The position numbers were made by a program, and so were the translations under genes. From assembly GCA_022826005.1 (NCBI GenBank), contig JAJDVT010000072.1:1-57429 (forward strand): a stretch of DNA of 57,429 nt, written 5' to 3'. The notes beneath the pieces are model-generated. The model was not told where the DNA came from. It saw only the letters and a program-made list of their open reading frames with translations, and searched no databases. Of this stretch, positions 1,932 to 57,429 are shown piece by piece. Source of the stretch: Gemmatimonadota bacterium. GTDB taxonomy: Bacteria > Gemmatimonadota > Gemmatimonadetes > Longimicrobiales > Gaopeijiaceae. How positions within the stretch are numbered: the first letter of the stretch is position 1; each line of letters begins with the position of its first letter.

Positions 1932-2042
1932 AGTCTTGGATGCAGGAATACCGCCGTGGTGTTAGACTAGAACCAGCTTTTGATCCCTTGGCAGCCCATT
2001 CCCCATAATGCCAACAGATTTGATCGTCAACAGGATATTGTC

Positions 2043-2383
2043 ATGAGCCGCAGAAGCAAGATTACCCATTCGCCGCCCGCCGCAGTTGAGAACGCCTTGA
2101 AGCGGCTGGGCCGGAATATCCGAATCGCGAGGCTCCGGAGGCGCCTGCGCATTCAGGATGTCGCGGACCGCATCGGTACCTCAAGGTTCACCGTCGCCGA
2201 CCTGGAGAAGGGAAAGCCAGCACCTCGATCGCCGCCTATTTCGGCTCCCTGTGGGCGCTGGGCCTTCTCGATCATGTGGACAGTGTCGCCGACCCCGACC
2301 TCGACGAGGAAGGCAAGATACTGGAGAACGCACGCCGCCCCGGACAGGCATCGCGTCTGCGCCAGCTCGACAATGACTTCTGA
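2043..2383 (+). pseudogene. hipB: HipB-type HTH antitoxin, frameshifted
   Basis: The ATG at 2043 follows an AGGA and opens MSRRSKITHSP, leading into an XRE-type helix-turn-helix (LGRNIRIARLRRRLRIQDVA, then TVADLEKGKP). At about 2215-2222 the frame breaks. One base inserted there would continue into TSIAAYFGSLWALGLLDHVD and end at the TGA 2381-2383, a normal HipB C-terminus. As read, translation instead runs through into hipA, giving an artificial 549-residue fusion. HipB normally represses its own promoter and neutralises HipA. The lesion could be a real inactivating deletion or a sequencing error; without HipB a functional HipA would be toxic, which favours error or a compensating change. 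Confidence 0.75.
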
Positions 2384-3629
2384 CCGCGAGTGCTATGTTT
2401 GTCTGACTCTGCCCGGCCGAAGCGAACCGGTACTCGCAGGCCGCCTGCGGGTATTCCGGACATTTGAAGGTCCATCGCTTGGCCGGTTCGTCTACGGGCG
2501 CAGCTATCTGGATCGACCCGACGCGGTCGAACTCGATCCGGTTGAGTTGCGTCTCTCGCGCAGCGTGTACGAAACTGCGCGCAGGGACGGCATCTTCGGT
2601 GCCATTCGCGACTCCATGCCCGACTACTGGGGGCGACGCCTGATCGGGCTGGGCACCGGCCAGGCGGTCTTTCAGGAGATGGACTACCTGCTTGCCGGAC
2701 CGGACGACCGTGCGGGGGCGCTCGCCTTCAGCAGGGATACCCGCCTGCCCGAACCCCGGTGCACCTTCCACACAATCGCCGATCTGCCGGAGCTTCACGC
2801 CATTGCGGACCGGGTTGTCCTCGACGACGTGGAGGGCGGTGGGGACCGCAAAGGGCAGACCCGTGTGCCCGCCCGCTGCTGGACATCGATGGGCGGTGCA
2901 CGCCCCAAGGCTGTCGTCCAGCACAAGAACCATCTCTGGCTGGCGAAGCTCAACCGGCCGGACGATCGCTTCAATCATCCCCGGGTGGAGCATGGACTAC
3001 TCCGCCTCGCCCGTGTGTGCGGCCTGAGCTCGGCTCACAGCGAGGTCACCCGGGTCGGTGGCCGGGACGTTCTTCTGGTCCGCCGGTTCGACCGCCAATG
3101 GAACGGCACCGACTATCACCGCAGCCGCATGGTCAGCGGGCTCACGCTGCTCCAGGCGAACGATACACCTGTGGACCGCTGGCGCTGGTCCTACCTTGCT
3201 CTGGCCGACGAGGTCCGGCGGGTAAGCGCCAAGCCCTCGGAGGATCTGCTCGAGCTGTTCGGACGGATCTGTTTCAGCATCGCGGTCTCGAACCTCGATG
3301 ACTATCCCCGCAACCACGCGCTCGTGGCCAACGGCCGGCACTGGCGGCTGAGCCCCGCCTACGATCTCATGCCGGTGCCGGCGACCGAGCGCGAACAGCG
3401 CAACCTGGCCATGATTTGCGGCCCATCCGGCCGAACGGCCAGCAGGGCGAACGCGCTCGGGGGCGCCCACCGGTTCCTTCTTGAGCAGGAGCAGGCCGGG
3501 CCGGTCTTCGACCGGATTTCGGCAACGGTCCGCGCCACCTGGCGCACCACCATGCTCGAGTGCGGCGTCAGCCAGCGGGACTGCGACACCATCGCGCCAG
3601 CCTTCGTTCACAACGCGCCGGCGGAGTAG
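2373..3629 (+). CDS. hipA: HipA-type serine/threonine kinase toxin
   Basis: A 418-residue protein starting at the ATG 2373, which overlaps the end of hipB by 11 bases, the usual coupling in hipBA operons. Family signatures are GGARPKAVV near the nucleotide-binding region, LWLAKLNRPDD, and near residue 307 NLDDYPRNHAL followed by WRLSPAYDLMP. The Asp/Asn of that segment correspond to the catalytic and Mg-binding residues of HipA kinases. In E. coli, HipA phosphorylates glutamyl-tRNA synthetase and induces dormancy; the target here is unknown. Length fits the family. Confidence in the toxin call is high, but activity is uncertain because the antitoxin frame is broken. Confidence 0.88.
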   Translation: MTSDRECYVCLTLPGRSEPVLAGRLRVFRTFEGPSLGRFVYGRSYLDRPDAVELDPVELRLSRSVYETARRDGIFGAIRDSMPDYWGRRLIGLGTGQAVFQEMDYLLAGPDDRAGALAFSRDTRLPEPRCTFHTIADLPELHAIADRVVLDDVEGGGDRKGQTRVPARCWTSMGGARPKAVVQHKNHLWLAKLNRPDDRFNHPRVEHGLLRLARVCGLSSAHSEVTRVGGRDVLLVRRFDRQWNGTDYHRSRMVSGLTLLQANDTPVDRWRWSYLALADEVRRVSAKPSEDLLELFGRICFSIAVSNLDDYPRNHALVANGRHWRLSPAYDLMPVPATEREQRNLAMICGPSGRTASRANALGGAHRFLLEQEQAGPVFDRISATVRATWRTTMLECGVSQRDCDTIAPAFVHNAPAE

Positions 3630-44066: not shown

Positions 44067-44096
44067 AACGAGGCGGGGGGCGCCCCCCGCCTCGTT
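44067..44096. repeat. 30-bp perfect palindrome
   Basis: Left arm AACGAGGCGGGGGGC is followed directly by its exact reverse complement. It lies 80 bases outside the IS inverted repeat, between the IS and the small secreted protein gene. It could be a terminator-like cruciform or a preferred target structure for the IS. Confidence 0.8.
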
Positions 44097-44690: not shown

Positions 44691-44707
44691 GTCCAATAGT
44701 GTTGGTG

Positions 44708-46096
44708 ATGGATAGGTGGGCTAACAAGCCCATTCCCCGCAGTCTCCGCCTGACGGAAGCGCCTGTGAATACCAGTAACCTCCTCTGGGTCGTTCTGTCC
44801 CTCGGCTTTGCAAAGCTATTCGTGGTGCCGGGTCTGTCGGCCCAGAAGGTGGTCGAAGTCACAGGCGACGACCGACAGATCGATGCGGATTTCCCGGAGG
44901 TTTACCGGGTCGGGAGCCTTGACGGAGAGCCGTGGGAGACCTTCGGTCGGGTGGGCGCGGTGGCCTTCGACGCCCAAGGCAACCTCTATGTGTTCGACCA
45001 TGGTAGCGATCCCTTCTCCGATCTGCGGATTGTGGTGTTCGATGGTTCCGGCACCTTTCGGCACGAGTTTGGTTCCGCCGGCGAGGGGCCGGGGGAGTTC
45101 AACCGCGTGGGGAGCTACACAGTCATGCGCGACGGCGCCACCATCGTCGGTGACATGGGTCATGGCGCATACCAGATCTTCGATGCATCCGGTGCCTTCG
45201 TGCGGATGGTACGCCCGGCGACCGGCGCATCCCCCATGGGGTTCATGCAGCGGAGTATTGCCGTCTCCACACCGATTCAGCCCGATCCGCGCGGCGGCGC
45301 AGTCTACACGATACCCCCGGAGACAGGCTTCGGCGTCGGTGCGGTGGGAGTCGGTCGGTCGCAGCCGACAGAGCGACCCGTCGTCCGCATCGGACTCGGG
45401 GGTGAAGTCGTCCAAGCGGATACCGTTGCGCGAGGTTGGGTTCCGCCGCGCGATCAGGGGCAACGCCTCTTCACCGGTTCCTCCGGGATCACGGTTGAGG
45501 GGCGCAACGTCACCCCCGGCCGCACTTTGAGTGGACTCTCCAGGCCTTCCATCTTCGAGCCCGAACTCCTGTGGGGCATCCTGCCCGGAGGTGACCTTGT
45601 GTACTCCGACTCCTCAACCTACCTGTTGAGGGTCGTGTCGCCTGAAACCGGAGAGGTGGTGCGAGTCGTCACACGGCCTTTCGATCCCGAGCCTGTCACT
45701 CCGCAAATCCAGGAAGACTATAGAGAACAGCGCAGCGCGAGGCGAAGAGATCGCAGGAGCAGCGAGGCGGCTGCGCGCTCCTCGGCGAACTCGGGACCGG
45801 CGCGGGTCTCCCTTGCCCTCACGGAGGCGCCATTCTACCACGAAATCCCCGTCCTCCGGGAGTTGAGCACGACTTGGGAGGGCCGGATCTGGGTCATGCG
45901 CCAAGCAGGCGCGCTCCTGGGCGACGAGCCGATCGACGTGTTGACGGAGGAGGGCGAATACGTCGGCACGTTTCCCGCCGACGCGACCGCAATGCCAAAT
46001 GCCTTTGGGCCGAATGGCTTGGCCGCCTTCATTGAGCGTGGCGAGCACGACGTAGTGCGCGTGGTTGTGCGCCGATTGCCCGAGAAAGTGCGCTGA
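44708..46096 (+). CDS. Secreted 6-bladed beta-propeller protein (paralog B)
   Basis: A 462-residue protein; ATG 44708 is preferred over the upstream GTG 44699. The N-terminus has a polar head then a signal core (LLWVVLSLGFAKLFVVPGLS, cleavage near LSAQ). Blades: GAVAFDAQGNLYVFDHGSDP, GSAGEGPGEFNRVGSYTVMR, YQIFDASGAFVRMV, DLVYSDSSTYLLRVVSPETG. An Arg/Ser-rich insertion (REQRSARRRDRRSSEAAARS) interrupts the penultimate blade. It ends AFGPNGLAAFIERGEHDVVR, as in paralogs A and C. Confidence 0.85.
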   Translation: MDRWANKPIPRSLRLTEAPVNTSNLLWVVLSLGFAKLFVVPGLSAQKVVEVTGDDRQIDADFPEVYRVGSLDGEPWETFGRVGAVAFDAQGNLYVFDHGSDPFSDLRIVVFDGSGTFRHEFGSAGEGPGEFNRVGSYTVMRDGATIVGDMGHGAYQIFDASGAFVRMVRPATGASPMGFMQRSIAVSTPIQPDPRGGAVYTIPPETGFGVGAVGVGRSQPTERPVVRIGLGGEVVQADTVARGWVPPRDQGQRLFTGSSGITVEGRNVTPGRTLSGLSRPSIFEPELLWGILPGGDLVYSDSSTYLLRVVSPETGEVVRVVTRPFDPEPVTPQIQEDYREQRSARRRDRRSSEAAARSSANSGPARVSLALTEAPFYHEIPVLRELSTTWEGRIWVMRQAGALLGDEPIDVLTEEGEYVGTFPADATAMPNAFGPNGLAAFIERGEHDVVRVVVRRLPEKVR

Positions 46097-46733
46097 ATCC
46101 GGATTTCCAAAACGGAGTATCTGGCTGGCCGGAGAGCGGATGTCGAGAGCCTGACGTGCTGCGGCCTCTCGCGGCGGGATCGGAGGCCGCCTTCGGGCTC
46201 TTTCGAGGAGTTTCGGGTATTCTACGGGCCACAGAATCGCCTGAGAGCGACGACCGCCGATCCCCGAGGGGTACGGGCAGGGTGGAAACCGAGCCGCGCG
46301 GGACAACGCCGCCGACCGCCAAGCAGTGACGGGTCGGCCTGTTCGCCCTCGCCGTCCGTGAGGCTGGCGGCAAAGAGGCCGAGGAACTGGCCCGAGACGA
46401 TCCGGCCCAGCGCGTCTCGGGCGGCGATCGGGGAGGGTTCCGCGAGTGTCCGCGGGGGCTGGCTTGAACCACTGTTAGGTGGTTCAGCCAGCATACCCCG
46501 TGTATAACACGGAGGCTGACGAGGGGTGGCTCCCGCCCCCCTTCGATCCCCTGGGGTTGCCCGCGCCGTTGACGGCGCGGCGGACGGTCCGCCCGTTGCC
46601 CTTGGGCTGACTCTTCCAGTCTGCCCGTTTCGCGGTGACGTAGGTGCGCAATGCTGCGCCCCGGCGTACTTTGGTAACCGACGCCGGAGGGCGTCGAGTT
46701 CGGAACCCTCAACCCCAAAGCACTGCACGCTTC
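46097..46733. other. 637-base intergenic region with two palindromes
   Basis: No gene is supported; the long reverse-strand frames here are Arg/Pro/Ser-rich shadows. It holds a 13-bp-stem hairpin (46459-46491) and a close palindrome CCGTGTATAACACGG (46498-46512), probably a transcription end and/or regulator site ahead of the next propeller gene. Downstream of both propeller genes B and C there is short shared sequence (CCGGAGAG...CGGATG...TCGA). Confidence 0.5.
46459..46491. terminator. Strong hairpin between propeller genes
   Basis: CTGGC and TGAACCAC pair with GTGGTTCA and GCCAG (one bulged T), closing a 6-nt TGTTAG loop, 13 bp in all. No T-run follows. Confidence 0.5.
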
Positions 46734-47957
46734 ATGCACCGGATGGCAACACAGCGCGCCGAGCGCATCGCGGTGGGCTCGGCGGGCTTCATCACGGCGC
46801 TCGTAGCGGCGGCTCTTCCGCTCGCCGCGCAAGAGGTGATCGAACTTCCCGGCGAGGACCGCCTCCTCGACGCCGACTTCGAAGAGATCTACCGGCTGGG
46901 TGCGGCGGGTGGGCGTGGCTGGGAGACATTCGGCCGGGTCGCCAGCGTAGGCTTCGATGGTGCCGGCAACCTCTACATCCTCGACTCGGGCGCGGTGCGA
47001 ATCCATGTCGTCGACCAGCAGGGCAATCTGGTGCGGCAATTCATCGGGCAAGGCGAGGGTCCCGGCGAGTTCGGGGGCAACTACGCAGACGCGCTGGAGT
47101 TTGCCGTCATGCTGGACGGCAGTGTGGCCGTCTACGACATGGGACGAATGGGATTCGCCCTCTTCGACGCACAGGGCGAATTCGAACGCACGATCCCCCT
47201 TGGAGGCCCGCAGACGCACTTTCCGATGATCGGCGGCCTTCAGGCCTTCCCGGCATCGGAGCGGGTACTCGCCACCACCGAAGTCGGCTATCTGAGGAGG
47301 ACCGCGCCCGGTCCCGACGACGAATCGCAGGCACCCTCGTTCCGGTATGTCCTGTCCTACGGTTTGAGCGCCGATCAGGTCCGCGTCGATTCGGTCGCGG
47401 CGGGGTGGCGGCCTCAAGGCGATCCCGAGGCGTTCAAGCCCCGCCTCGCGGCGGGCGTGCTGCCCAACGGGGCAGTGGTGTACACCGACTCCTCTTCGTA
47501 CGCTATCAAGTTCGTGGTGCCTGGCGGTCGCGTTGACCGGATCCTGACCCGTCCGTTCCGGTCGCGCCGCGTGACGGAAGCCATGAAGGCCGCCGAGCTC
47601 AAGCGCCGGCTTGAGGGGCTTGGGGACGGCGGCGGCGATCCGATGCGGCAACGAATGATCGAATTCCGGCGCAGCCAGATCGAGGCGATGGAATTTTTCC
47701 ACGAGGTCCCCGTCGTCCTCGACCTGAAAACGAGTTGGGAAGGCACTATCTGGATTCGCCAACGGGGTGACGACGAGACGGAAGGCAGCCGGATCGACCT
47801 TGTTTCGTCGGAAGGCCGCTATCTGGGCACCTTCGCGCCCGACTCCACCGCGATGCCTTCGGCCTTCGGCCCAAACGGCCTCGCCGCCTTCGTAGAGACG
47901 GACGACTTGGACATATCCTACGTCGTGGTCAAGCGTCTGCCGGATGGGATGCGCTGA
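46734..47957 (+). CDS. Secreted 6-bladed beta-propeller protein (paralog C)
   Basis: A 407-residue protein; ATG 46734 or 46743 (MATQRAERIAVGSAGFITAL...) both give a signal peptide ending ALPLAAQ. Blades: ASVGFDGAGNLYILDSGAVR, GQGEGPGEFGGNYADALEF, GFALFDAQGEFERTIPLGG, GAVVYTDSSSYAIKFVVPGG. It ends SAFGPNGLAAFVETDDLDIS and VVVKRLPDGMR. It is the most compact of the three paralogs and shares with B the start of the mature protein (V-E-V-T-G-D-D-R-Q-I-D-A-D-F versus I-E-L-P-G-E-D-R-L-L-D-A-D-F). Confidence 0.87.
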   Translation: MHRMATQRAERIAVGSAGFITALVAAALPLAAQEVIELPGEDRLLDADFEEIYRLGAAGGRGWETFGRVASVGFDGAGNLYILDSGAVRIHVVDQQGNLVRQFIGQGEGPGEFGGNYADALEFAVMLDGSVAVYDMGRMGFALFDAQGEFERTIPLGGPQTHFPMIGGLQAFPASERVLATTEVGYLRRTAPGPDDESQAPSFRYVLSYGLSADQVRVDSVAAGWRPQGDPEAFKPRLAAGVLPNGAVVYTDSSSYAIKFVVPGGRVDRILTRPFRSRRVTEAMKAAELKRRLEGLGDGGGDPMRQRMIEFRRSQIEAMEFFHEVPVVLDLKTSWEGTIWIRQRGDDETEGSRIDLVSSEGRYLGTFAPDSTAMPSAFGPNGLAAFVETDDLDISYVVVKRLPDGMR

Positions 47958-48057
47958 TCCCCCACACGTATCCCAGAGAGCCGGTCGGGAGAGAACCGGA
48001 TGCTCCGGCATCTCGAAGCCGCGCTCGACAGAGCCTTCCCGCCAGGGATTGATGAGT

Positions 48058-48153
48058 CCCGGAGCGACCCCCGCCGCGGAGGTTGGGATGGAATGCACAT
48101 CCCGACCTCCGCAGATGCCACGGCAGGCATCGAAAAATGGGGGTCGCTCCGGG
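48058..48153. ncRNA. Candidate structured RNA or folded DNA element: three-way junction
   Basis: An outer stem of 15 perfect base pairs (48058-48072 with 48139-48153) encloses two hairpins: a 15-bp stem with one wobble and a 7-nt loop (48076-48090 with 48098-48112), and a 6-bp stem with a 6-nt loop (48114-48119 with 48126-48131). The joining segments are GCC, A and GAAAAAT. Such nested pairing is not explained by a coding gene or a simple terminator. Orientation is unknown because the pairing works on either strand. Confidence 0.6.
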
Positions 48154-48472
48154 CACGGCCCCCGGTTCCACTGCGGCGCAGCCGCCCCGGAGGCCGTGAT
48201 GCAACTGAAAGCCGGACAACGACATGCGCCGTCGCGGTCGTGCACTCCCGAACCGCGATTTCGCGCACATGCACGACCTCCTCACATGTGCGGTCCCCGC
48301 ACGGCCCCGGACCCGCGTTCAGAGTCCGAACAAACGTCTCCCCAAGTGTTCGTGCGCGCCACGCTCCTGTCGACCCCCGACAAAACGCCTACACCGTTCG
48401 TATCGCGACCAGCCGGACCTGTTGGACGACCTGCCACTGGTCAAACACCCCCTGCTCGGCGACATTTCGTTC

Positions 48473-48490
48473 GCGCAGATCGTGCAGTCC
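48473..48490 (-). repeat. Inverted 18-base repeat core
   Basis: GCGCAGATCGTGCAGTCC is the exact reverse complement of 42217-42234, and its inner 13 bases are the reverse complement of 48712-48724. It lies 22 bases upstream of the integrase arm's ATG. Confidence 0.6.
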
Positions 48491-48511
48491 ATCTTCGAAA
48501 GGAATCGAACG

Positions 48512-48739
48512 ATGGCACGCACGAGAAGAAGCCGCCGGAGCTACGGCGCCGGCGAGTGGGGCCGGAACCGCGTGAGGGTGTTCCCCGACGCCAAGACCGG
48601 CCTGTACCAGATGGAGTGGCGAGAGAACGGCCGCAGGGTCACCCGGTCGCTGGGACAGCGCTTCGCGAGTGACATGAATCACGGTAAGGAATCGTCTAAG
48701 TTCATACAGGGCTGCACGATCTGCCGTCCTTGCCGCTGA
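48512..48739 (+). pseudogene. Tyrosine integrase, N-terminal arm only
   Basis: ATG 48512 after AAAGGAA. MARTRRSRRSYGAGEWGRNR, VRVFPDAKTGLYQMEWREN and GRRVTRSLG are the arm-type DNA-binding start of integrases common in this phylum. After residue ~50 the similarity ends and the frame reads MNHGKESSKFIQGCTICRPC from the 65-bp repeat, then stops. The core-binding and catalytic (R-H-R-Y) domains are missing, so it cannot recombine DNA. Confidence 0.65.
48676..48739 (+). repeat. 65-bp repeat, copy 2
   Basis: Partner of 42184-42247; shared core CTGCACGATCTGC at 48712-48724. It forms the truncated 3' end of the integrase arm. Distance between copies is ~6.5 kb. Confidence 0.6.
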
Positions 48740-48810: not shown

Positions 48811-51800
48811 TCAGAACGTGAAGTCGAGTGCAAGTCTGAGTCCGAGATTGGAGTCTTGTCCGGGCATCCGGCTGCGTGACCCCTCGATCCCAAGCCGCAT
48901 GATCTGGCTGACGTGGTACCGGGTGCCGAACGACCAGGAGCGGGTCCGGCCGTCCGCCGATAGGCGGGTGTAGCTGTCGAGCGCGCCTTCGCCCGCGGGG
49001 TTCTTGAACCCGTAGCCGGCCTCGGCGTCGAGCCGCCAGTCCTGTCCCGTGGCGGGCGTCATTGCGTGGAACGTTCCGCCGTCCATGAGTCCGTGCATGC
49101 CGCTTCGGTCGCGCCCGTGCCCGGGGCTGACCGCGAGCCGGAACCCTTGGCCGCGTGTTCCGGGATCGAACGCGAGCCGCAGCGCGGCGCCCCATTCGCG
49201 GTGCCGGTTCGAGCCGAGGGCGAGCCTGCCCCTGAGGTCGAGGTCGAGTCCGCGGCCCGCGTAGCCGACCGAAGCGCCGGTCTCGGCACCCGCGCCCGTA
49301 TCGGCGTCGCCCGCGTCGTAGCGCGCTCCAGCCTGCGTGGCGAGCTTGAGGCCGCCGGAGGTCCAGGACGCTTCAAGCAGTGCGCGTGCGCGCGAGGCCG
49401 AGCCTTCGCGCTCGCCGCCGTCGGCGCGCATTCCGACGGTGAACGCGTCGCCGGTGAGCGCGAGTCCGAACGCGCCGCTGCGGGCGAGCGGAACGTTGAC
49501 GCCACCCGATAGCATGCGGAGCGAGGCGCCGGCGTCGCCTTGGCGGTCGTCGTGCCCGACATCTCCGCTTCCGTAGCCGGCCATGGCCCAGAGTCCGATC
49601 CCTGGCGACGGCTGGAGGAACAGGTAGGGATGCACGCTGTTCATCGCGTGGCCGAGCGAGCCGTCGATTGAGCCGCGTGAGTAGTCGAGGTCGCCGTCGC
49701 TGCGCATGAGCGACACTCCGAGGAGCGCGGAGGAGCCGATGCGGGCGTCGGCACCGACGGTGAGCGAGCGCATGCCCCCATCGTAGTCGATGCCGGGTTC
49801 GCCGCGGAACGATTGGGTCGCGCCTTCGGCCCAGAGCCCGAGCCGGAGCCATCCCTGGGCGGACTGCGGCCCCAAGCCGGTCGCGAACGAGACGCTCGGA
49901 AGCAGGCGTTCGGCCGCCTCCCGTCCGGTGGGCAGTGCGAACGACTCGGAGCGGCGCGCCATGTCGGCTGCCGAGGATGCGCCCAGCGGCAGGCCGGTGA
50001 GCGAGGCGAGAGAGCTCGCCGCGCGTCCGGTCCACTCCGCCGCGGAGCTGGGCGCGGATGTCTTGAAGCCCGCCGGTCCCGGCCGCATGACGGCGTCGAT
50101 GCGTGCCCCGATGGCCTGGCGCGCGCCTTCGGCCACGGCGCGTCCGAAGACGGCAAGGCCGAGGTCGAACGCCTCGTCCCGGAGCGCGCCGGCGTCCTGC
50201 GCCGCGATGTCAACGGTGGCGGAAGCGACGGCGCCCGCGCTCACGGCTTCGGGCAGCGTGCCGAACCCGAGCGCGAGCAGGCCGGGCACGGTCCCTGCCG
50301 GGACTTCGATCATGAACGTTGAAAGCGAATCGCCGGATACGAACACCACGGAGTCCGGGAAAACCGGCTCCGGGAAGGAGGCGTAAGTGGCCGTGATGGG
50401 CACGGCCACCCGCCGGTCGGCGGCGGGACTCACCCGCAGCGTGATCCCGGTCCCCGGCCCGCCCGCAACCGCCGAGTACTCGGCTTGGACGTATTCGACC
50501 TCAAGTTCGGTCGGCGATCCATCCTGGACGACGGATCCCGAAACCCGGTCTCCCGCGGCCGCCGTGACGACGATCCGCGTCGTCGCCGGAACGCCGACGG
50601 CCACACCTTCCGGAAGGTCGCCGAACCGGACCGCGAGGGTGTCGGCGGCCAAGAGGCCGGCGGTGCCGATGGCCAGACTGCTACTGCTCGCGCCGCTCTG
50701 GAACGTGACGATGTGCGTGCCGTCTCCGGCCACGACCTCGATCGCGAGCGTTGAGGAGGCCGCGGGCGACAGAAGGACGGCGACATCGGCGGATCCGCCC
50801 GCGGCGGCCGTGTAGCTGTCTGCGCCGAACGATACGACCGGCGTGGAGGCTCCGACGACCGCGATGGCCGCGCTCTCCGCGCGCTTGCCGGGCCCGTGGC
50901 CGTCGGTGTAGGTGAACACGGCGCGCAGGTACTTGCCCCGGTCCGCTTCGGTCGGGGTGTAGAAGCGCCTCGCCGCGCCCTGCACGATCATCGTCCACTG
51001 GGCGCCGTCGGACGACCGCTGCCAGCTCCGCATCTTGCTCCTCTCGACCGAGCGGTCCTGGTCCATCAGCGTCGCGGTCAGCCGCTCGCCCACGCGGGCC
51101 ACGTCCGCGCTCAGCGCGATCTTGCCCGGATCGTCCGCGTTCGTCACCCGGATCTTGACCGAGGCGGTGTCGGCAAGTTCCCCGTCGCTCGCCTCGACGA
51201 GCACGGTGAACAGCGTGTCCCCGCTCTCGTAGTCGAGGTCCGCGCCGTCGGCCACCGTGATCTGGCCGGTCGATTCACCGATCCCGAACAGGCCCTCGTC
51301 GTCGCCCGACAGGAACCCGTAGGACAGCGTGGGGCTGTCGGAGTCGGTCGCCGCCACCGGCGCGCCGACCTCCGTGCCGCCCGGCGAGTTCTCCGCGACC
51401 TCGCGCTCGTACGCGGCGGCGAACTTCGGAGCCGCGTTCGCGGGCAGCACCTTCACCGCCACGCTCACGGCCCGCTTGCCCGGCCCGTGGCCGTCGGTGT
51501 AGTCGAACACCGCCCGCAGCCACTTGCCCTCATCGAGCGCCACGGGGTTGTAGGTCCGGCCCGTGCCGATGTAGTTCCACGAGTTGCCGCCCGCCGAGCG
51601 CTGCCACCTGCGGCGCCTGCCCGCGTCCCGCACGCCGTCCTCGTCCATCAGCGTCGCGGTCGACTCGACGCCCACACGGGCCACATCCGGGCTCAGCGCG
51701 ACCTTGCCCGGATCGTCCGCGTCGGTCACCCGGATCTCGACCGAGGCCGTGTCGGCGAGCTCGCCGTCGCTCGCCTCGACGAGCACCGTGAACAGCGTGT

Positions 51801-54800
51801 CGCCGCTCTCGTAGTTCAGCGCCGCGTCCGCGGCCACCCTGATCCGGCCCGTCGCCGCGTTGATCCCGAACGGCGCGTCGTCCCCGCCGCCCACGACGTT
51901 GTAGGTCAGTTCGTCGCCGTCCTCGTCGGTGGCCGTCACGGGCTTCCCGACCCTCGCGCCGCCCGGCGAGTTCTCCGCGATCTCGCGCTCGTACGCGTCC
52001 GCGCCGAAGACGGGCGCCGCGTTCGCGGCCAGCACCTTGACCGCGTCGCTCACGGCGCGCTTGCCCGGCCCGTGGCGGTCGGAGTAGGTGAACACCACCC
52101 GCAGCCACTTGCCGGCGTCGCTCGTCACGGGGTTGTACATCCGGCCCGTCGCGATGTCGTTCCACGAGTTGCCGTTCCGCGAACGCTGCCACCGGCGCCT
52201 CCTGCTCGCGTTGCGCACGCCGTCCTCGTCGATCAGCGCCACGGTCATCTCGACGCCCACGCGGGCCGCCTCCGGGCTCAGCACGACCTTGCCGGGCTCG
52301 TCCGCGTTCGTCACCCGGATCTCGACCGGGGCCGTGGCCGCGAGTTCGCCGTCGCTGGCCTCGACGCTCACCGTGAACAGCGTGTCGCCGCTCTCGTAGT
52401 CCAGCGCCGCGCCCTCGGCCACCGTGATCCGGCCCGTGGCACCGTCGATCTCGAACGGAGCTTCGTCCCCGCCTGAGACGAAGCTGTACGTCAAGTCGTC
52501 GTCGTCATCGTCGGTGGCCGTCACGGGCTCTCCGACCGCTGTTCCCGCAGGCGAGTTCTCGGCCACCTCGCGTTCGTAGGCCTCCGCACCGAACGACGGC
52601 GCCCTGTTGGCCGCCTCGGTCGTACCCTCGCCCGGCTCCGACCACTCGCCCATGCCCTCCGGACTTTCCGCGCGCACCTGGACGTGGTATGCGGTTCCGC
52701 CCTCCAGCCCCGTGATCGTGTGCGTCAACACCGCGCCCAGGGTCGTCGGCGCCGTCCACTCGCCGTCCGCCCCGGCCCGGTACCGCAGATGGTAGCCGGT
52801 GATCTCCGGACCCTCGTTCGACGGGGCGCTCCACGACACCGCCACCTCCTCGGTGCCGCCCGTCACCGCCGGCGCGGCCGGCTTGCCCGGAGCGGGCACA
52901 TCCGTCACCTGGATCGTCACCGCCGCCGTGGCCGCCAGCGTCCCGTCACTCGCCCGGACGCTCAACGTGTAGACCGTCGTGCCGCCCTCGTAGTCCAGCG
53001 CGGCACCCTCGGCCACCGCGATCTGGCCGCTCGACGCGTCGATCTCGAAGGGTGCTTCGTCCCCACCCGAGACGAAGCTGTACGTCAACTCGTCGTCGTC
53101 ATCGTCGGCGGCCGTCACGGGCTCTCCGACCGCCGTTCCGGCCGGCGAGTTCTCGGCAACCGAGCGCTCGTAGGTCTTCGCGTCGAACGACGGCGCCTTG
53201 TTGGCCGTCTCGGCCGCACCTTCGCCGGACTCCGACCACGCGCCCGCGCCCTCCGGACTCTCCGCGCGCACTTGCACCTGGTAGGTGGCTCCGCCCTCCA
53301 GCCCCGTGATCGTGTGAGCGAGCACAACGCCCAGCGCCGACACGTCCGTCCACTCGCCACCGCTCTTCGCCCGGTACCGCAGATGGTAGACGGTGATCGC
53401 CGGCCCTTCGTTCGACGGCGCGCTCCACGACACCGCCACCTCCTCGGTGCCGCCGGTCACCGCCGGCGCGGCCGGCCTGCCCGGCGCGGGCACGTCCGTC
53501 ACCCGGATCGTCACCGCCGCCGTGGCCGTCAGCGTCCCGTCGCTCGCCTGGACGCTCACCGTGTAGACCGTCGTGCCGCCCTCGTAGTCGAGCGCGGCCC
53601 CCTCGGCAACCGCGATCTGGCCGGTCGTCGCGTCGATCTCGAATGGTGCTTCGCCGCCCGAGACGAAGCTGTACGTCAAGTCGTCGTCGTCATCGTCGGT
53701 GGCCGTCACGGGTTCTCCGACCGCTGTTCCGGCCACCGAGTTCTCGGCAATCGAGCGTTCGTAGGTCTGCGCATCGAACGACGGCGCCCTGTTGGCCGTC
53801 TTCGTCGTACCCTCGCCCGGCTCCGACCACTCGCCCGCGCCCTCCGAACTCTCCGCGCGCACCTGCACCTCGTACGTGGTGCCTGCATCGAGTCCGGCGA
53901 TCGTGTGCGTCACCACCGCGCCCAGCGCCGACACGTCCGTCCACTCGCCGTCCGCCTTCGCCCGGTAACGGAGATCGTAGTTCGCGATCTTCGGCCCCTC
54001 GTTCGACGGCGCGCTCCACGACACCGCCACCTCTCCGGTCCCGCCCGTCACCACCGGCGCATCCGGCCTGCCCGGAGCCGGCACGTCCGTCACGCGGATC
54101 GTCACCGCCGCCGTGTCCGCCAGCGCCCCGTCGCTCGCCCGGACGCTCACCGCGTAGGCCGTCGTGCCGCTCTCGTAGTCGAGCGCGGCCCCCTCGCCGA
54201 CCGCGATCTGGCCGGTCGCCGTGTCGATCTCGAACGGCACGCCGCCGCTGGAGACGAAGCTGTACGTCACGTCGTCGCCGTCCCTGTCCGACGCCGTCAC
54301 CGCCTCGCCCACGGCCGTCCCGGCCGCCGAGTTCTCCGCCACCTCCCGCTCGTACGCGTCGTCCTCGAACGACGGCGGCCCATTCGTCACCGTCACCCGG
54401 AACTGCTGGCTCGCGATCCCGCCGTCCCCGTCGTCCGCCCGCACCACCACCTCGGTGCTCCCCTTCGCCAAGCCCTCCACCGTCAGCTCCGCGCCCTCCA
54501 CCGACACGGCCACGATCGCCGTGTCGTCCGCGGCCGCCGTGTACTTGAGGGTGTCCCGGTCGAGGTCGTGGAACTTGTCCGTCAGCCCTACCGTGAAGCG
54601 TTTGCCCCCTGCGATCGTCCGCGGCGGGACCGCATTGATGACCACCGGCGCCCGGTTCGGAACCTCGACCTCGAACGCCTGCTCGGCCGTGCCGCCATGT
54701 CCGTCGTCCGCCGTCACGGTCACCTTCGCCGAACCGCGCGACACGCCGCGAAGCAGCACTTCGTCCCGGCTCGCGTCCACCGTCACGATGTCCCCGTCCG

Positions 54801-57429
54801 ACGAGGACGCCCGATACGTGAGAGCGTCTCCGTCCGGATCCTCGAACCCGCGCGAAACCCCGATCCACAACGCCTCACGCTTGTTCACCGTCCTGCGCCG
54901 GAGCGATCCCACCGCGTCAGGCGCGCGGTTCGGAACCGTCACCGCGAAGTGCTGACTCACCGATCCGCCGCGCCCGTCCCGCGCCGTGACCGTCACCCGC
55001 GTCCCGCCGCGCGACACCCCCGTCACCCTCACCTCGCTCCCGCTCACCGCGACCGTCGCGACCGTCTCGTCCGACGACTCGGCCTCGTAGCTCAGCGCGT
55101 CCTTGTCCGGGTCGCTGAAGCGGCCCGACACCTCGACCGCCGCCGTCTTGCCCGCCTCCACCGTCAGCGCCGGGATCGCGCTCTCGATCTTGGGCGGATC
55201 GTTCGCGGGGCCGACCGTCACCGTGAATTTCTGCGACACGGTTGCATCGTGCGTGTCGCGGGCCGTGACCGTCACCCGGGACTCGCCGGGGGACACGCCC
55301 GTCACCGTCACCTCGCTCCCGCTCACCTTCACCGTGGCGGCCGCCTCGCTCGAAGACTCGGCTTCGTACGTCAGCGCGTCCCCGTTCGGATCGCTGAAGT
55401 GCGCCGACACGTCCACGACCTTCGCGTCGCCCGCGCTGACCGTCAGCGCCGGAATCGCGCTCTCCACGTCCGGCGCCTGGTTCTCCACCGTCACCTGGAA
55501 CGTCTGCGACACGGTTGCATCGTGCGTGTCGCGCGCCGTGACCTTCACCCGGGATTCGCCGGGGGACACGCCCGTCACCGTGATCTCGCTTCCGTTCACC
55601 TTCACAGTCGCCGCCGCCTTCGACGACTCGGCATCGTACGTCAGCGCGTCTTCGTCCGGATCGCGGAAGCGGCTCGACACGTCCACCACCGCCGTCTTGC
55701 CCGCCGCCACCGTCAGCGCCGGAATCGCGCTCACCACCACCGGCTTCTCGTTCACGTCCGTCACCGAGATGGCCACGGCGCCTTCGGCGCTCGCGTCGCC
55801 GCCCGCTTCGCTCACCGTCAGCTTGAGCGCGTACGAAGCCTTCGTCTCGTGATCCAGCGTCTTCGCCACCGCGATCTTCGCGTCGTCGTCGCCGGTACCG
55901 GCCGCCGCAACCGCGAAGTCCGCCGCCCCGTCGCCCGACAGCGCGTAGCCGAGCGTGCCGCAGTCCCCCTTGGTCGTCACGCCCACCTTGCCGTCCACTC
56001 CGGCCCCGACACCCGTATCCTCGGGCACCGAAAGAGCCCCGCCCGACACCGTGACTACGCACGGCTCCGCCGGCTTCGGCTCCACCGTCACCGAAAAGAC
56101 CTGCGTCGCCTCCAGCCCCGCGCGGTCCCGCGCCGTGACCGTGACCGTCGCGCTCCCCGGCGCGACGCCCGTCAGCGTCACCGGACTCCCGCTCGCGTTC
56201 ACCGTCAGCCTGCCCGTCGCAGACGACTGCGACGTGAAGGTCAGCCGGTCCCCGGCGTCCTCGTCGGTGAAGTAGCCCGTTACGTCCACCGAACCCGGCC
56301 GCCCGACCCGGACCGTCTGCGCCGTGATCGTGCGATGCGGCTTCGGCGCCTCGTTCACGTCCGTCACCGAGATGTCCACGTCGCCCGCGCCGCTCGCCGT
56401 GCCGCCCACCTCGCTCACCGTCAGCGTCAGATCGTACGCGTCCCGGTCCTCGTGGTTCAGCGCGCCCTTCACCTTGATCTTGCCGTCGTCGTCGCTCGCG
56501 CTCGCCGCCGCAACCGAGAAATCGCCGGACCCCGTGCCCGACAGCGCATAGCTCAGCGTCCCGCAATCCCCCGTCGTCGTGACCCCCACCTTGCCGCCCA
56601 CTCCGTCGCCGACACGCGCGTTCTCGGGCACCGACAGAGCCCCGTTCGACACCGTGATCCCGCACGGCTTCGGCGCCGGCTCCACCGTGACCGGAAACGT
56701 CTGCGTCGCCGTCAGACCCGCGCGGTCCCGCGCCGTGACCGTGACCGTCGCGCTCCCCGCAGCAACGCCCGTCAGCGTCACCGGGCTCCCGCTCGCGTTC
56801 ACCGTCAGCTTGCCCGTCGCCGACGATTGCGCACTGAAGGTCAGCCGGTCCCCCGCGTCCTCGTCCGTGAAGTAGTTCGTCACATTCACCGAACCCGGCC
56901 GCCCGACCCGGACCTTCTGCACGGCAATCGTGCCCGTCGCCGTCGGCGCCTCGTTCACGTCCGTCACCGAGATGTCCACGTCGGCCGAGCCGCTCACCGA
57001 TCCCCAGCTCACCGTCAACTTCAGATCGTACGCGGCCCGCGCCTCGTGGTTCAGCCTCTTGGCCACCTTGATCCTCGCGTCGTCATTGCTCGCACCCGCC
57101 GCCGCAACCGAGAAATCCTCCCAGTCCGTGCCCGACAGCGCATAACGCAACGTCCCACAGTCCGACGCCTCCACGCTCACGTCGCTGCTCAACGCGGTGC
57201 CCACTCCCGCATTCTCGGCCACCCGCAAAGCGGCAGCCGACACTCTGATCTTGCAGTCCCGCGTAGGTTCGTAGACCTCGACGTCGAACTGCTGCGTCGC
57301 CGTCAGTCCGCCGGTGTCCTCCGCCGTAACCGTTACCCTCGCGCTCCCCGCCGCAACGCCCGTCAGCGTCACCGGGCTCCCGCTCGCGTTCACCGTCAGC
57401 CTGCCCGTCGCCGACGATCGCGCACTGAA
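48811..57429 (-). CDS. Giant autotransporter-like adhesin, C-terminal 2872 residues (5' end outside the window)
   Basis: The frame is open to the window edge. Domain order from there: (1) three ~200-residue units pairing a Cys-containing cadherin-like domain (FSVAAA, DLTLTVSEVGG, ISVTDVNEAP) with a Big-type Ig domain (YFTDEDAGDRLTF, VTLTGVA); (2) Ig-like repeats of ~91 residues (IPALTV, ESRVTVTARDTHDATVSQ) and relatives; (3) cadherin repeats (EREVAENSAAGTAVGEAVTA, DYESGTTAYAVSV) each followed by fibronectin III (VSWSAPSNEGP, GTTYEVQVRAES); (4) three ~193-residue units of cadherin plus a W-Q-R-S domain (ALIDEDGVRNASRRRRWQRS, KRAVSDAVKVL). The last ~350 residues are an outer-membrane barrel ending ALDFTF with terminal aromatic. 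It would be surface-displayed, probably for adhesion. Confidence 0.88.
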   Translation of the reverse strand, partial: FSARSSATGRLTVNASGSPVTLTGVAAGSARVTVTAEDTGGLTATQQFDVEVYEPTRDCKIRVSAAALRVAENAGVGTALSSDVSVEASDCGTLRYALSGTDWEDFSVAAAGASNDDARIKVAKRLNHEARAAYDLKLTVSWGSVSGSADVDISVTDVNEAPTATGTIAVQKVRVGRPGSVNVTNYFTDEDAGDRLTFSAQSSATGKLTVNASGSPVTLTGVAAGSATVTVTARDRAGLTATQTFPVTVEPAPKPCGITVSNGALSVPENARVGDGVGGKVGVTTTGDCGTLSYALSGTGSGDFSVAAASASDDDGKIKVKGALNHEDRDAYDLTLTVSEVGGTASGAGDVDISVTDVNEAPKPHRTITAQTVRVGRPGSVDVTGYFTDEDAGDRLTFTSQSSATGRLTVNASGSPVTLTGVAPGSATVTVTARDRAGLEATQVFSVTVEPKPAEPCVVTVSGGALSVPEDTGVGAGVDGKVGVTTKGDCGTLGYALSGDGAADFAVAAAGTGDDDAKIAVAKTLDHETKASYALKLTVSEAGGDASAEGAVAISVTDVNEKPVVVSAIPALTVAAGKTAVVDVSSRFRDPDEDALTYDAESSKAAATVKVNGSEITVTGVSPGESRVKVTARDTHDATVSQTFQVTVENQAPDVESAIPALTVSAGDAKVVDVSAHFSDPNGDALTYEAESSSEAAATVKVSGSEVTVTGVSPGESRVTVTARDTHDATVSQKFTVTVGPANDPPKIESAIPALTVEAGKTAAVEVSGRFSDPDKDALSYEAESSDETVATVAVSGSEVRVTGVSRGGTRVTVTARDGRGGSVSQHFAVTVPNRAPDAVGSLRRRTVNKREALWIGVSRGFEDPDGDALTYRASSSDGDIVTVDASRDEVLLRGVSRGSAKVTVTADDGHGGTAEQAFEVEVPNRAPVVINAVPPRTIAGGKRFTVGLTDKFHDLDRDTLKYTAAADDTAIVAVSVEGAELTVEGLAKGSTEVVVRADDGDGGIASQQFRVTVTNGPPSFEDDAYEREVAENSAAGTAVGEAVTASDRDGDDVTYSFVSSGGVPFEIDTATGQIAVGEGAALDYESGTTAYAVSVRASDGALADTAAVTIRVTDVPAPGRPDAPVVTGGTGEVAVSWSAPSNEGPKIANYDLRYRAKADGEWTDVSALGAVVTHTIAGLDAGTTYEVQVRAESSEGAGEWSEPGEGTTKTANRAPSFDAQTYERSIAENSVAGTAVGEPVTATDDDDDDLTYSFVSGGEAPFEIDATTGQIAVAEGAALDYEGGTTVYTVSVQASDGTLTATAAVTIRVTDVPAPGRPAAPAVTGGTEEVAVSWSAPSNEGPAITVYHLRYRAKSGGEWTDVSALGVVLAHTITGLEGGATYQVQVRAESPEGAGAWSESGEGAAETANKAPSFDAKTYERSVAENSPAGTAVGEPVTAADDDDDELTYSFVSGGDEAPFEIDASSGQIAVAEGAALDYEGGTTVYTLSVRASDGTLAATAAVTIQVTDVPAPGKPAAPAVTGGTEEVAVSWSAPSNEGPEITGYHLRYRAGADGEWTAPTTLGAVLTHTITGLEGGTAYHVQVRAESPEGMGEWSEPGEGTTEAANRAPSFGAEAYEREVAENSPAGTAVGEPVTATDDDDDDLTYSFVSGGDEAPFEIDGATGRITVAEGAALDYESGDTLFTVSVEASDGELAATAPVEIRVTNADEPGKVVLSPEAARVGVEMTVALIDEDGVRNASRRRRWQRSRNGNSWNDIATGRMYNPVTSDAGKWLRVVFTYSDRHGPGKRAVSDAVKVLAANAAPVFGADAYEREIAENSPGGARVGKPVTATDEDGDELTYNVVGGGDDAPFGINAATGRIRVAADAALNYESGDTLFTVLVEASDGELADTASVEIRVTDADDPGKVALSPDVARVGVESTATLMDEDGVRDAGRRRRWQRSAGGNSWNYIGTGRTYNPVALDEGKWLRAVFDYTDGHGPGKRAVSVAVKVLPANAAPKFAAAYEREVAENSPGGTEVGAPVAATDSDSPTLSYGFLSGDDEGLFGIGESTGQITVADGADLDYESGDTLFTVLVEASDGELADTASVKIRVTNADDPGKIALSADVARVGERLTATLMDQDRSVERSKMRSWQRSSDGAQWTMIVQGAARRFYTPTEADRGKYLRAVFTYTDGHGPGKRAESAAIAVVGASTPVVSFGADSYTAAAGGSADVAVLLSPAASSTLAIEVVAGDGTHIVTFQSGASSSSLAIGTAGLLAADTLAVRFGDLPEGVAVGVPATTRIVVTAAAGDRVSGSVVQDGSPTELEVEYVQAEYSAVAGGPGTGITLRVSPAADRRVAVPITATYASFPEPVFPDSVVFVSGDSLSTFMIEVPAGTVPGLLALGFGTLPEAVSAGAVASATVDIAAQDAGALRDEAFDLGLAVFGRAVAEGARQAIGARIDAVMRPGPAGFKTSAPSSAAEWTGRAASSLASLTGLPLGASSAADMARRSESFALPTGREAAERLLPSVSFATGLGPQSAQGWLRLGLWAEGATQSFRGEPGIDYDGGMRSLTVGADARIGSSALLGVSLMRSDGDLDYSRGSIDGSLGHAMNSVHPYLFLQPSPGIGLWAMAGYGSGDVGHDDRQGDAGASLRMLSGGVNVPLARSGAFGLALTGDAFTVGMRADGGEREGSASRARALLEASWTSGGLKLATQAGARYDAGDADTGAGAETGASVGYAGRGLDLDLRGRLALGSNRHREWGAALRLAFDPGTRGQGFRLAVSPGHGRDRSGMHGLMDGGTFHAMTPATGQDWRLDAEAGYGFKNPAGEGALDSYTRLSADGRTRSWSFGTRYHVSQIMRLGIEGSRSRMPGQDSNLGLRLALDFTF
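51127..52310 (-). repeat. In-frame ~580-bp coding repeat, three copies
   Basis: The segment GGATCGTCCGCG(T/G)(T/C)... and its flanks recur at about 51127, 51704 and 52288 with long runs of identity. The three units encode cadherin plus W-Q-R-S modules of the adhesin. Confidence 0.75.
52505..54300 (-). repeat. In-frame ~595-bp coding repeat, three to four copies
   Basis: Landmarks such as CGATCGTGTG recur at about 52710, 53307 and 53900. Each unit encodes one cadherin plus one fibronectin III module. Nearly identical stretches suggest recent duplication or conversion. Confidence 0.75.
55747..57393 (-). repeat. In-frame ~600-bp coding repeat, about three copies
   Basis: CTCGTTCACGTCCGTCACCG recurs at about 55747, 56350 and 56950, giving periods of 603 and 600 bases. 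The array may continue outside the window. Confidence 0.75.

Follow-up and report, generated by a model that had tools for sequence, protein, structure and literature searches.

The window analyzed here is a 57,429-nt stretch of DNA from a Gemmatimonadota bacterium. A gap between the stop codon (47957) of a 6-bladed β-propeller gene and the ATG (48512) of an integrase remnant contains a 96-nt three-way junction (3WJ, 48058–48153). The features of this region are as follows; the A-block, the 3WJ subtypes, and the cargo are described below.

Start 46644/46734, stop 47957, plus strand: 6-bladed β-propeller gene bordering the A-block (sub-threshold match to PF17170)
48033–48057, plus strand: cargo-side edge of the A-block (GAGCCTTCCCGCCAGGGATTGATGAGT region; motif in relatives, GGCCTTCC.GCA.GGATTG.TGG)
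48058–48153, plus strand (the favored folded strand, "long hairpin first"): type-A 3WJ, from fold z-score, relatives, covariation, and mismatch bias
48058–48072 paired with 48139–48153: outer stem of the 3WJ
48076–48112: long hairpin of the 3WJ
48114–48131: short hairpin of the 3WJ
48154–48198, plus strand: second hairpin, adjoining the 3WJ (CACGGCCCCCGG..CCGGAGGCCGTG; plan conserved in relatives)
48240–48292, plus strand: iteron/operator-like half-sites of the outer flank (GTGCAC at 48240; CGCACA at 48264–48269 and TGTGCG at 48287–48292, 23 bp apart)
48424–48511, plus strand: conserved leader directly upstream of the integrase start (blastn conservation across integrase paralogs)
48512–48661, plus strand: truncated tyrosine integrase, N-terminal ~50 codons (MARTRRSRRSYGAGEWGRNRVRVFPDAKTGLYQMEWRENGRRVTRSLG..; PF00589 family)

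The integrase remnant is ~80% identical in amino acid sequence to residues 15–70 of an intact paralog (P0001, PF00589); homology to the intact paralogs ends at ~48651–48661, and the remainder of the gene is missing. The 3WJ is intergenic and lies beside a truncated integrase, in agreement with a sequence-only reading made earlier.

Three further features of the window were observed. The propeller gene is one of 2 tandem genes for secreted 6-bladed propeller paralogs (44699–46096 and 46644–47957), which are ~66–68% identical in stretches. A perfect 30-bp palindrome (AACGAGGCGGGGGGCGCCCCCCGCCTCGTT), unconnected with the 3WJ, occupies an intergenic position at 44067–44096. The minus strand of 48811–57393 carries an ORF of 2,860 aa with, by inspection, many cadherin-like and fibronectin-like repeats, and close copies (79–89%) of its C-terminal segment occur elsewhere in its own and related genomes.

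The fold and its family

Refolding of 48058–48153 reproduced the structure that the sequence-only reading had drawn, in which a perfect 15-bp outer stem (CCCGGAGCGACCCCC/GGGGGTCGCTCCGGG) encloses 2 inner arms, a 15-bp hairpin with a 7-nt loop and a 6-bp hairpin with a 6-nt loop; only GCC, A, and 7 nt at the junction are left unpaired in the centroid structure, again as first described. The minimum free energy is −77.1 kcal/mol, compared with −37.8 ± 3.8 kcal/mol for dinucleotide shuffles (z = −10.4; 0 of 200 shuffles reached the same value), and the opposite strand is nearly as stable (−72.7). A search for intrinsic terminators (a GC-rich hairpin followed by a T-run) was blank at the 3WJ on both strands. 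No tRNA or tmRNA was found in the window, which had no match in Rfam at the gathering threshold and only weak chance matches at a relaxed one.

The structure is not confined to the window. In the same genome, blastn detected 2 diverged copies (77–79%), both of which fold as a 3WJ and one of which lies upstream of an intact integrase abutting tRNA-Pro. A scan for the outer stem, together with covariance models, raised the count obtained by searching this genome to at least 16; the exact inverted pattern GACCCCC..GGGGGTC had no match there, being too strict. The copies fall into 2 subtypes. In subtype A, to which the window copy belongs, the long hairpin is GGTTGGGATG..CATCCCAACC and the short hairpin ATGCC..GGCAT; in subtype B, the long hairpin has a GTGTG/CACAC tip and the short hairpin is CCCTC..GAGGG. 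The model built from A finds B and the model built from B finds A, with identical orientation. The closing core AGCGACC/GGTCGCT is nearly invariant, and the arm sequences vary and covary. The second hairpin is common to the C58 and C131 copies and occupies the same position in other A-blocks.

When each sequence was folded singly with the outer stem held, the order outer stem, long hairpin, short hairpin appeared in 62 of 63 members (33/33 A and 29/30 B), an order that shuffles of the inner sequence give in 17–18%. Compensatory changes occur along the outer stem: the first pair is changed from G-C to C-G in 13 of the 33 A elements, the first 2 pairs are so changed in 5 of the 30 B elements, and the third pair is changed from G-C to T-A in 6 A and 8 B elements. 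The covariation score of this stem exceeded those of all 500 shuffles and of all slid controls. In MAFFT consensus folds of the complete A and B sets, the inner hairpins disappeared, as the arms shift in length; therefore, covariation of the inner helices was counted on an alignable subset of 13 A sequences and complemented by per-sequence folding. In this subset, all 3 helices were changed on both sides. Homologous copies near integrases and compensatory changes, by which the sequence-only reading had proposed to check the fold, were thus both found. We conclude that the window 3WJ is real, conserved, and apparently undescribed, and that it belongs to an undescribed family of ~90-base three-armed structures within integrase-carrying mobile DNA.

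The mismatches inside the helices are unevenly distributed. Among 54 less redundant elements, G-T mismatches outnumber A-C mismatches by 16 to 4, and purine–purine mismatches outnumber pyrimidine–pyrimidine mismatches by 48 to 1 (the p-value of 0.01 is optimistic and indicative only, the sequences being related). This bias suggests that one defined strand, the plus strand in the window, is the folding one, and it fits a folded single strand of RNA or of DNA alike.

A palindromic, multicopy, intergenic sequence could also be a chance or inert MITE-like repeat travelling with the integrase. We consider this very improbable, given the covariation, the architecture common to 62 of 63 members, and the constant spacing to gene X described below. 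A MITE is further argued against by the ends of the structure, since homology runs 25 bp and ~140 bp past the 2 sides of the stem and no target-site duplication is found at the stem ends.

A cis-element of integrase-carrying mobile DNA

Besides the window remnant, the genome contains ~15 full-length and a dozen partial paralogs of the integrase. Conservation profiles of 80 loci resolved separate modules (a B-block, an A-block, and the integrase with ~100 bp) with unrelated DNA between them. Read in the sense of the integrase, an element runs from a reversed B through the cargo region to a forward A and the integrase, so that it can hold 2 inverted 3WJs that point away from the cargo region; the A-type 3WJ usually lies 270–410 bp ahead of the integrase. 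At the right end, the integrase is followed by 2 AGCGGGAATC-type repeats and then by the attachment core; this coincides in several loci with the 3′ half of tRNA-Pro or with the start of tRNA-Ile. An intact tRNA-Pro or tRNA-Ile gene was found 54–66 bp past the integrase stop in several of the 80 loci and in the C58 copy of the same genome. Site-specific attachment at tRNA genes is thus seen in relatives; in the window, the integrase copy is truncated. No convincing direct repeat of ≥12 nt was found between the integrase right end and the upstream DNA that could mark a left attachment site, and one locus (G010:C40) shares the right flank only.

Cross-genome homology begins sharply at 48033 of the window (query position 1434), where dozens of matches from the genus start, and the edge motif is kept on the inner side of both A and B. 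In six loci, B and A are separated by a conserved ~164-bp spacer; elsewhere, unrelated cargo, in many cases just one gene, occupies this interval. Cargo inserted ~105 bp from B encodes a relaxase, or β-barrel or small outer-membrane proteins. In the window, the propeller gene holds the cargo position and is a probable cargo of the element; a homolog in G011:C57 (locus L189) starts beside a B-type 3WJ, and another in G003:C12 adjoins an integrase. The only direct repeat flanking cargo was a marginal one of 20 bp in L080, and an apparent repeat around the cargo of L093 proved to be an overlap artifact.

Relatives of the window element carry mobilization genes. Some copies encode AlpA, a VirD4/TraD coupling protein (PF10412, 5.6e-9; PF10412/PF12696 in L097 and 6 homologs), a MobA/VirD2 relaxase (PF03432, 2.2e-13 in L083; homologs in L086, L143, and C75), or ArdC. 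TraD can occupy the cargo place and is the first gene after the 3WJ in all 6 TraD loci in which upstream DNA is present. A 3WJ of type B in C75 and of type A in L083 lies between divergent integrase and relaxase genes; no 3WJ was detectable in the relaxase-bearing loci L086 and L143. These data show that integrative elements with a tyrosine integrase and, in some copies, mobilization genes form a family, of which the 3WJ is one conserved cis-element.

Several other features were observed in these loci. Integrases often stand tail to tail, for example in L073 (589–1806, plus strand, and ~2019–3218, minus strand), and comparable pairs occur in other genomes. The arrangement looks as though a second element had inserted, in reverse orientation, into one and the same short, partly palindromic core (e.g., CTGCCATTTTGGCAG). 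A gene that by inspection encodes an IS110-type transposase (L137:2690–4045, minus strand) adjoins a B-type 3WJ. Upstream of a B-A-B-integrase array, a 929-aa protein (L127:1042–3831, plus strand) has on inspection the look of a type IIG restriction-modification enzyme and is possibly defense cargo. A 299-aa winged-helix-like protein (L145:4421–5317, plus strand), with no match in Pfam, NCBIfam, or PHROGs, is encoded beside ArdC in TraD-bearing elements.

The covariance model of A matches 20 of the 23 genomes of the window's genus, with up to 26 copies each, and one genome (G033) of a sister genus in the same family, which is also integrase-rich; it had no match in 66 other genomes of the family, order, and class. 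Many genomes of the genus have 11 to more than 30 integrase copies, and, in the genus and G033, the number of 3WJ copies tracks that of the integrase (Spearman 0.85 for the genus alone). The named relatives are mostly metagenome-assembled genomes labeled Gemmatimonadetes or Gemmatimonadota, including the BD2-11 clade and Longimicrobiales bins; some bins labeled Gammaproteobacteria or Acidobacteria could reflect horizontal transfer or mis-binning. From the bin names and the literature on the group, we read the hosts as mostly derived from sponges. Gene X was not found in plasmids or IMG/VR, nor the 3WJ pattern in IMG/VR. A literature search for sponge-symbiont integrase elements or 3WJ origins returned no description, an absence that is weak evidence.

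The position of the attachment core bears on one of the first proposals for the 3WJ, that of a folded single-strand recombination site. The core lies downstream of the integrase, so that the 3WJ is not the crossover site; no direct repeat links the two, and the recombination proposal was not upheld. An attP or attL site is likewise rejected, as the core and tRNA gene come after the integrase stop and the 3WJ lies upstream of the integrase, inside the element. The related suggestion that the 3WJ is the terminus of an unknown element holds in that it is part of such an integrase element and fails in that it is internal, away from the core.

A variant of the recombination proposal is an integron-like arrangement, in which A and B would be folded single strands and cassettes of one gene each would be captured in the interval between them. 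The adjacent tyrosine recombinase, the sharp cargo-side edge, and the exchange of the ~164-bp spacer for unrelated, often single-gene cargo between B and A would fit it, and the 3WJ resembles attC in being a folded hairpin site near such a recombinase. Integron attC sites have R and L boxes with GTT/AAC ends, an unpaired spacer, and extrahelical bases. By contrast, the sequence and alignments of the 3WJ show a perfect outer stem, no unpaired central spacer, no extrahelical bases, and no R or L boxes, and on these grounds attC was rejected; the integrase is not of the integron type and has its own core elsewhere, at tRNA genes. As the cargo also lacks reliable flanking repeats and the 3WJ is coupled better to X than to the integrase, an integron-like role is improbable.

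Gene X and the possible roles of the 3WJ

The closest partner of the 3WJ is an undescribed winged-helix gene of ~320 aa, which we designate X. An intact 3′ end and sufficient downstream DNA were available for 25 X genes, and in 24 of these a convergent A or B 3WJ follows ~167–197 bp past the X stop; L231 is the only intact X without one, and the larger apparent gap in L244 is due to a shortened match. In L100 and L080, X genes stand on both sides and face each other. The interval between X and the 3WJ holds the second hairpin and repeated half-sites of the TGTGCA/TGTGAA type, mostly as inverted pairs 22–25 bp apart. These half-sites number 48 in the A-block flanks, compared with 6.8 expected from shuffles, and 26 in the B-block flanks, compared with 7.5.

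X belongs to no family in Pfam, NCBIfam, or PHROGs. Its AlphaFold2 model (pLDDT 79 overall) predicts a MarR-like winged helix at the N terminus (Z up to 7.7); apart from this helix, fold searches of X gave only a weak match to a viral protein, gp146 of phage G (E = 2.6e-4). No HUH-type motif was seen in X. We take its winged-helix plan to be similar to that of Replic_Relax (PF13814); assignment to that family found no support, as X has no such Pfam match and a search of genomes from the genus did not detect the family.

A MarR-like fold, palindromic half-sites, and a 3WJ just ahead of TraD or relaxase start codons would suit a DNA operator, a cruciform, or another site that controls transcription of X and the cargo genes and takes no part in transfer. 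The conserved helices of a 90-nt 3WJ go far beyond the requirements of an operator, and strand-biased mismatch types are not expected from a double-stranded cruciform; this explanation is accordingly unlikely.

We tentatively favor a single-strand-folding origin or transfer module recognized by X. X would bind the half-sites that recur in the outer flank. Once transfer or rolling-circle-like replication has made the element single-stranded, the 3WJ would fold on one strand and serve as an origin-type site of the excised element (an oriT, or a single-strand or replication origin, possibly for second-strand synthesis). The mobile context, the coupling to X, the iteron-like half-sites, the retention of structure while sequence changes, and the mismatch bias all speak for such a site. 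X is absent from the window and the integrase is truncated, which indicates a decayed element; the window copy would be what is left after the loss of X and of most of the integrase. Against an origin stand the relaxase loci without a detectable 3WJ and the strand bias, which fits RNA equally well. Its main weaknesses are that X has a C-terminal domain without an assigned family and that A and B form an inverted pair; because they point opposite ways, any strand that is transferred can bear only one of them, a difficulty for a simple single-strand origin (sso) or oriT.

The main rival, which fits nearly as well and takes up the new small RNA proposed in the sequence-only reading, is a structured RNA: the "long hairpin first" strand would yield a small RNA or a leader, transcribed convergently to X, possibly as an antisense to the 3′ end of X, as an RNA partner of the X protein, or, where X is missing, as part of the leader of the integrase. 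The strand-biased mismatches, the orientation of the 3WJ, which follows X and not the whole element, and the compensatory changes around an invariant core stem agree with this explanation. On the other side, 47900–48560 contains no sigma70-type promoter and, as terminators, only weak matches on the minus strand (48531–48548), both being weak tests for this phylum; no Rfam family covers the structure, and in TraD elements transcription would need to start inside the 5′ region of TraD. An RNA is possible, if doubtful. In a bolder and rather unlikely version, X and the 3WJ as RNA would be the two parts of a new kind of ribonucleoprotein system of mobile elements, which would process DNA with the help of RNA or act as an addiction module; its half-sites would be element-specific, and 2 inverted units per element would flank a cargo dock.

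The favored origin-type site can be compared with known systems. Iteron-type replication origins combine repeated half-sites with winged-helix Rep proteins. The 3WJ flank similarly has half-sites ~23 bp apart beside a winged-helix protein gene; it differs in that X has no detectable Rep homology, the half-sites are few, and the 3WJ has no counterpart there. In ICEBs1, the origin sso1 is structured and orientation-specific and immediately follows the relaxase gene (PMC4595007). Like sso1 and rolling-circle sso sites, the 3WJ is intergenic, structured, fixed in orientation, and more conserved in structure than in sequence, and just as sso sites lie immediately downstream of a DNA-processing gene, the 3WJ lies past X, a putative DNA-processing gene (PMC4595007). 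Unlike sso1, to which it has no sequence match, the 3WJ is ~90 nt long with an invariant GCGACC stem, its partner X is not a known relaxase, and 2 inverted copies are possible per element. The oriT of SGI1, which spans 125 bp, is GC-rich with inverted repeats, and neighbors a tyrosine-recombinase-like relaxase, shares with the 3WJ the GC-richness, a length of ~100 bp, the inverted repeats, and a place by mobilization or tyrosine-recombinase-type genes (PMC6414798). The 3WJ is far more elaborate and is multicopy per genome, and any nic site or relaxase partner of it would be hypothetical. We class it as a candidate origin-type cis-element that integrative elements carry, and do not count it as an established oriT or sso.

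As the marker of a family of integrative elements with an undescribed partner protein, the 3WJ is of more interest than a hairpin on its own. Together, the structured cis-element and X, neither of which has a match in Pfam, NCBIfam, PHROGs, or Rfam, define an apparently undescribed family of high-copy integrative elements, and the 3WJ model and gene X provide a ready marker for finding them. If the 3WJ is an origin, the family would constitute a large natural alignment for the recognition of a folded single strand during DNA transfer in uncultured symbionts.
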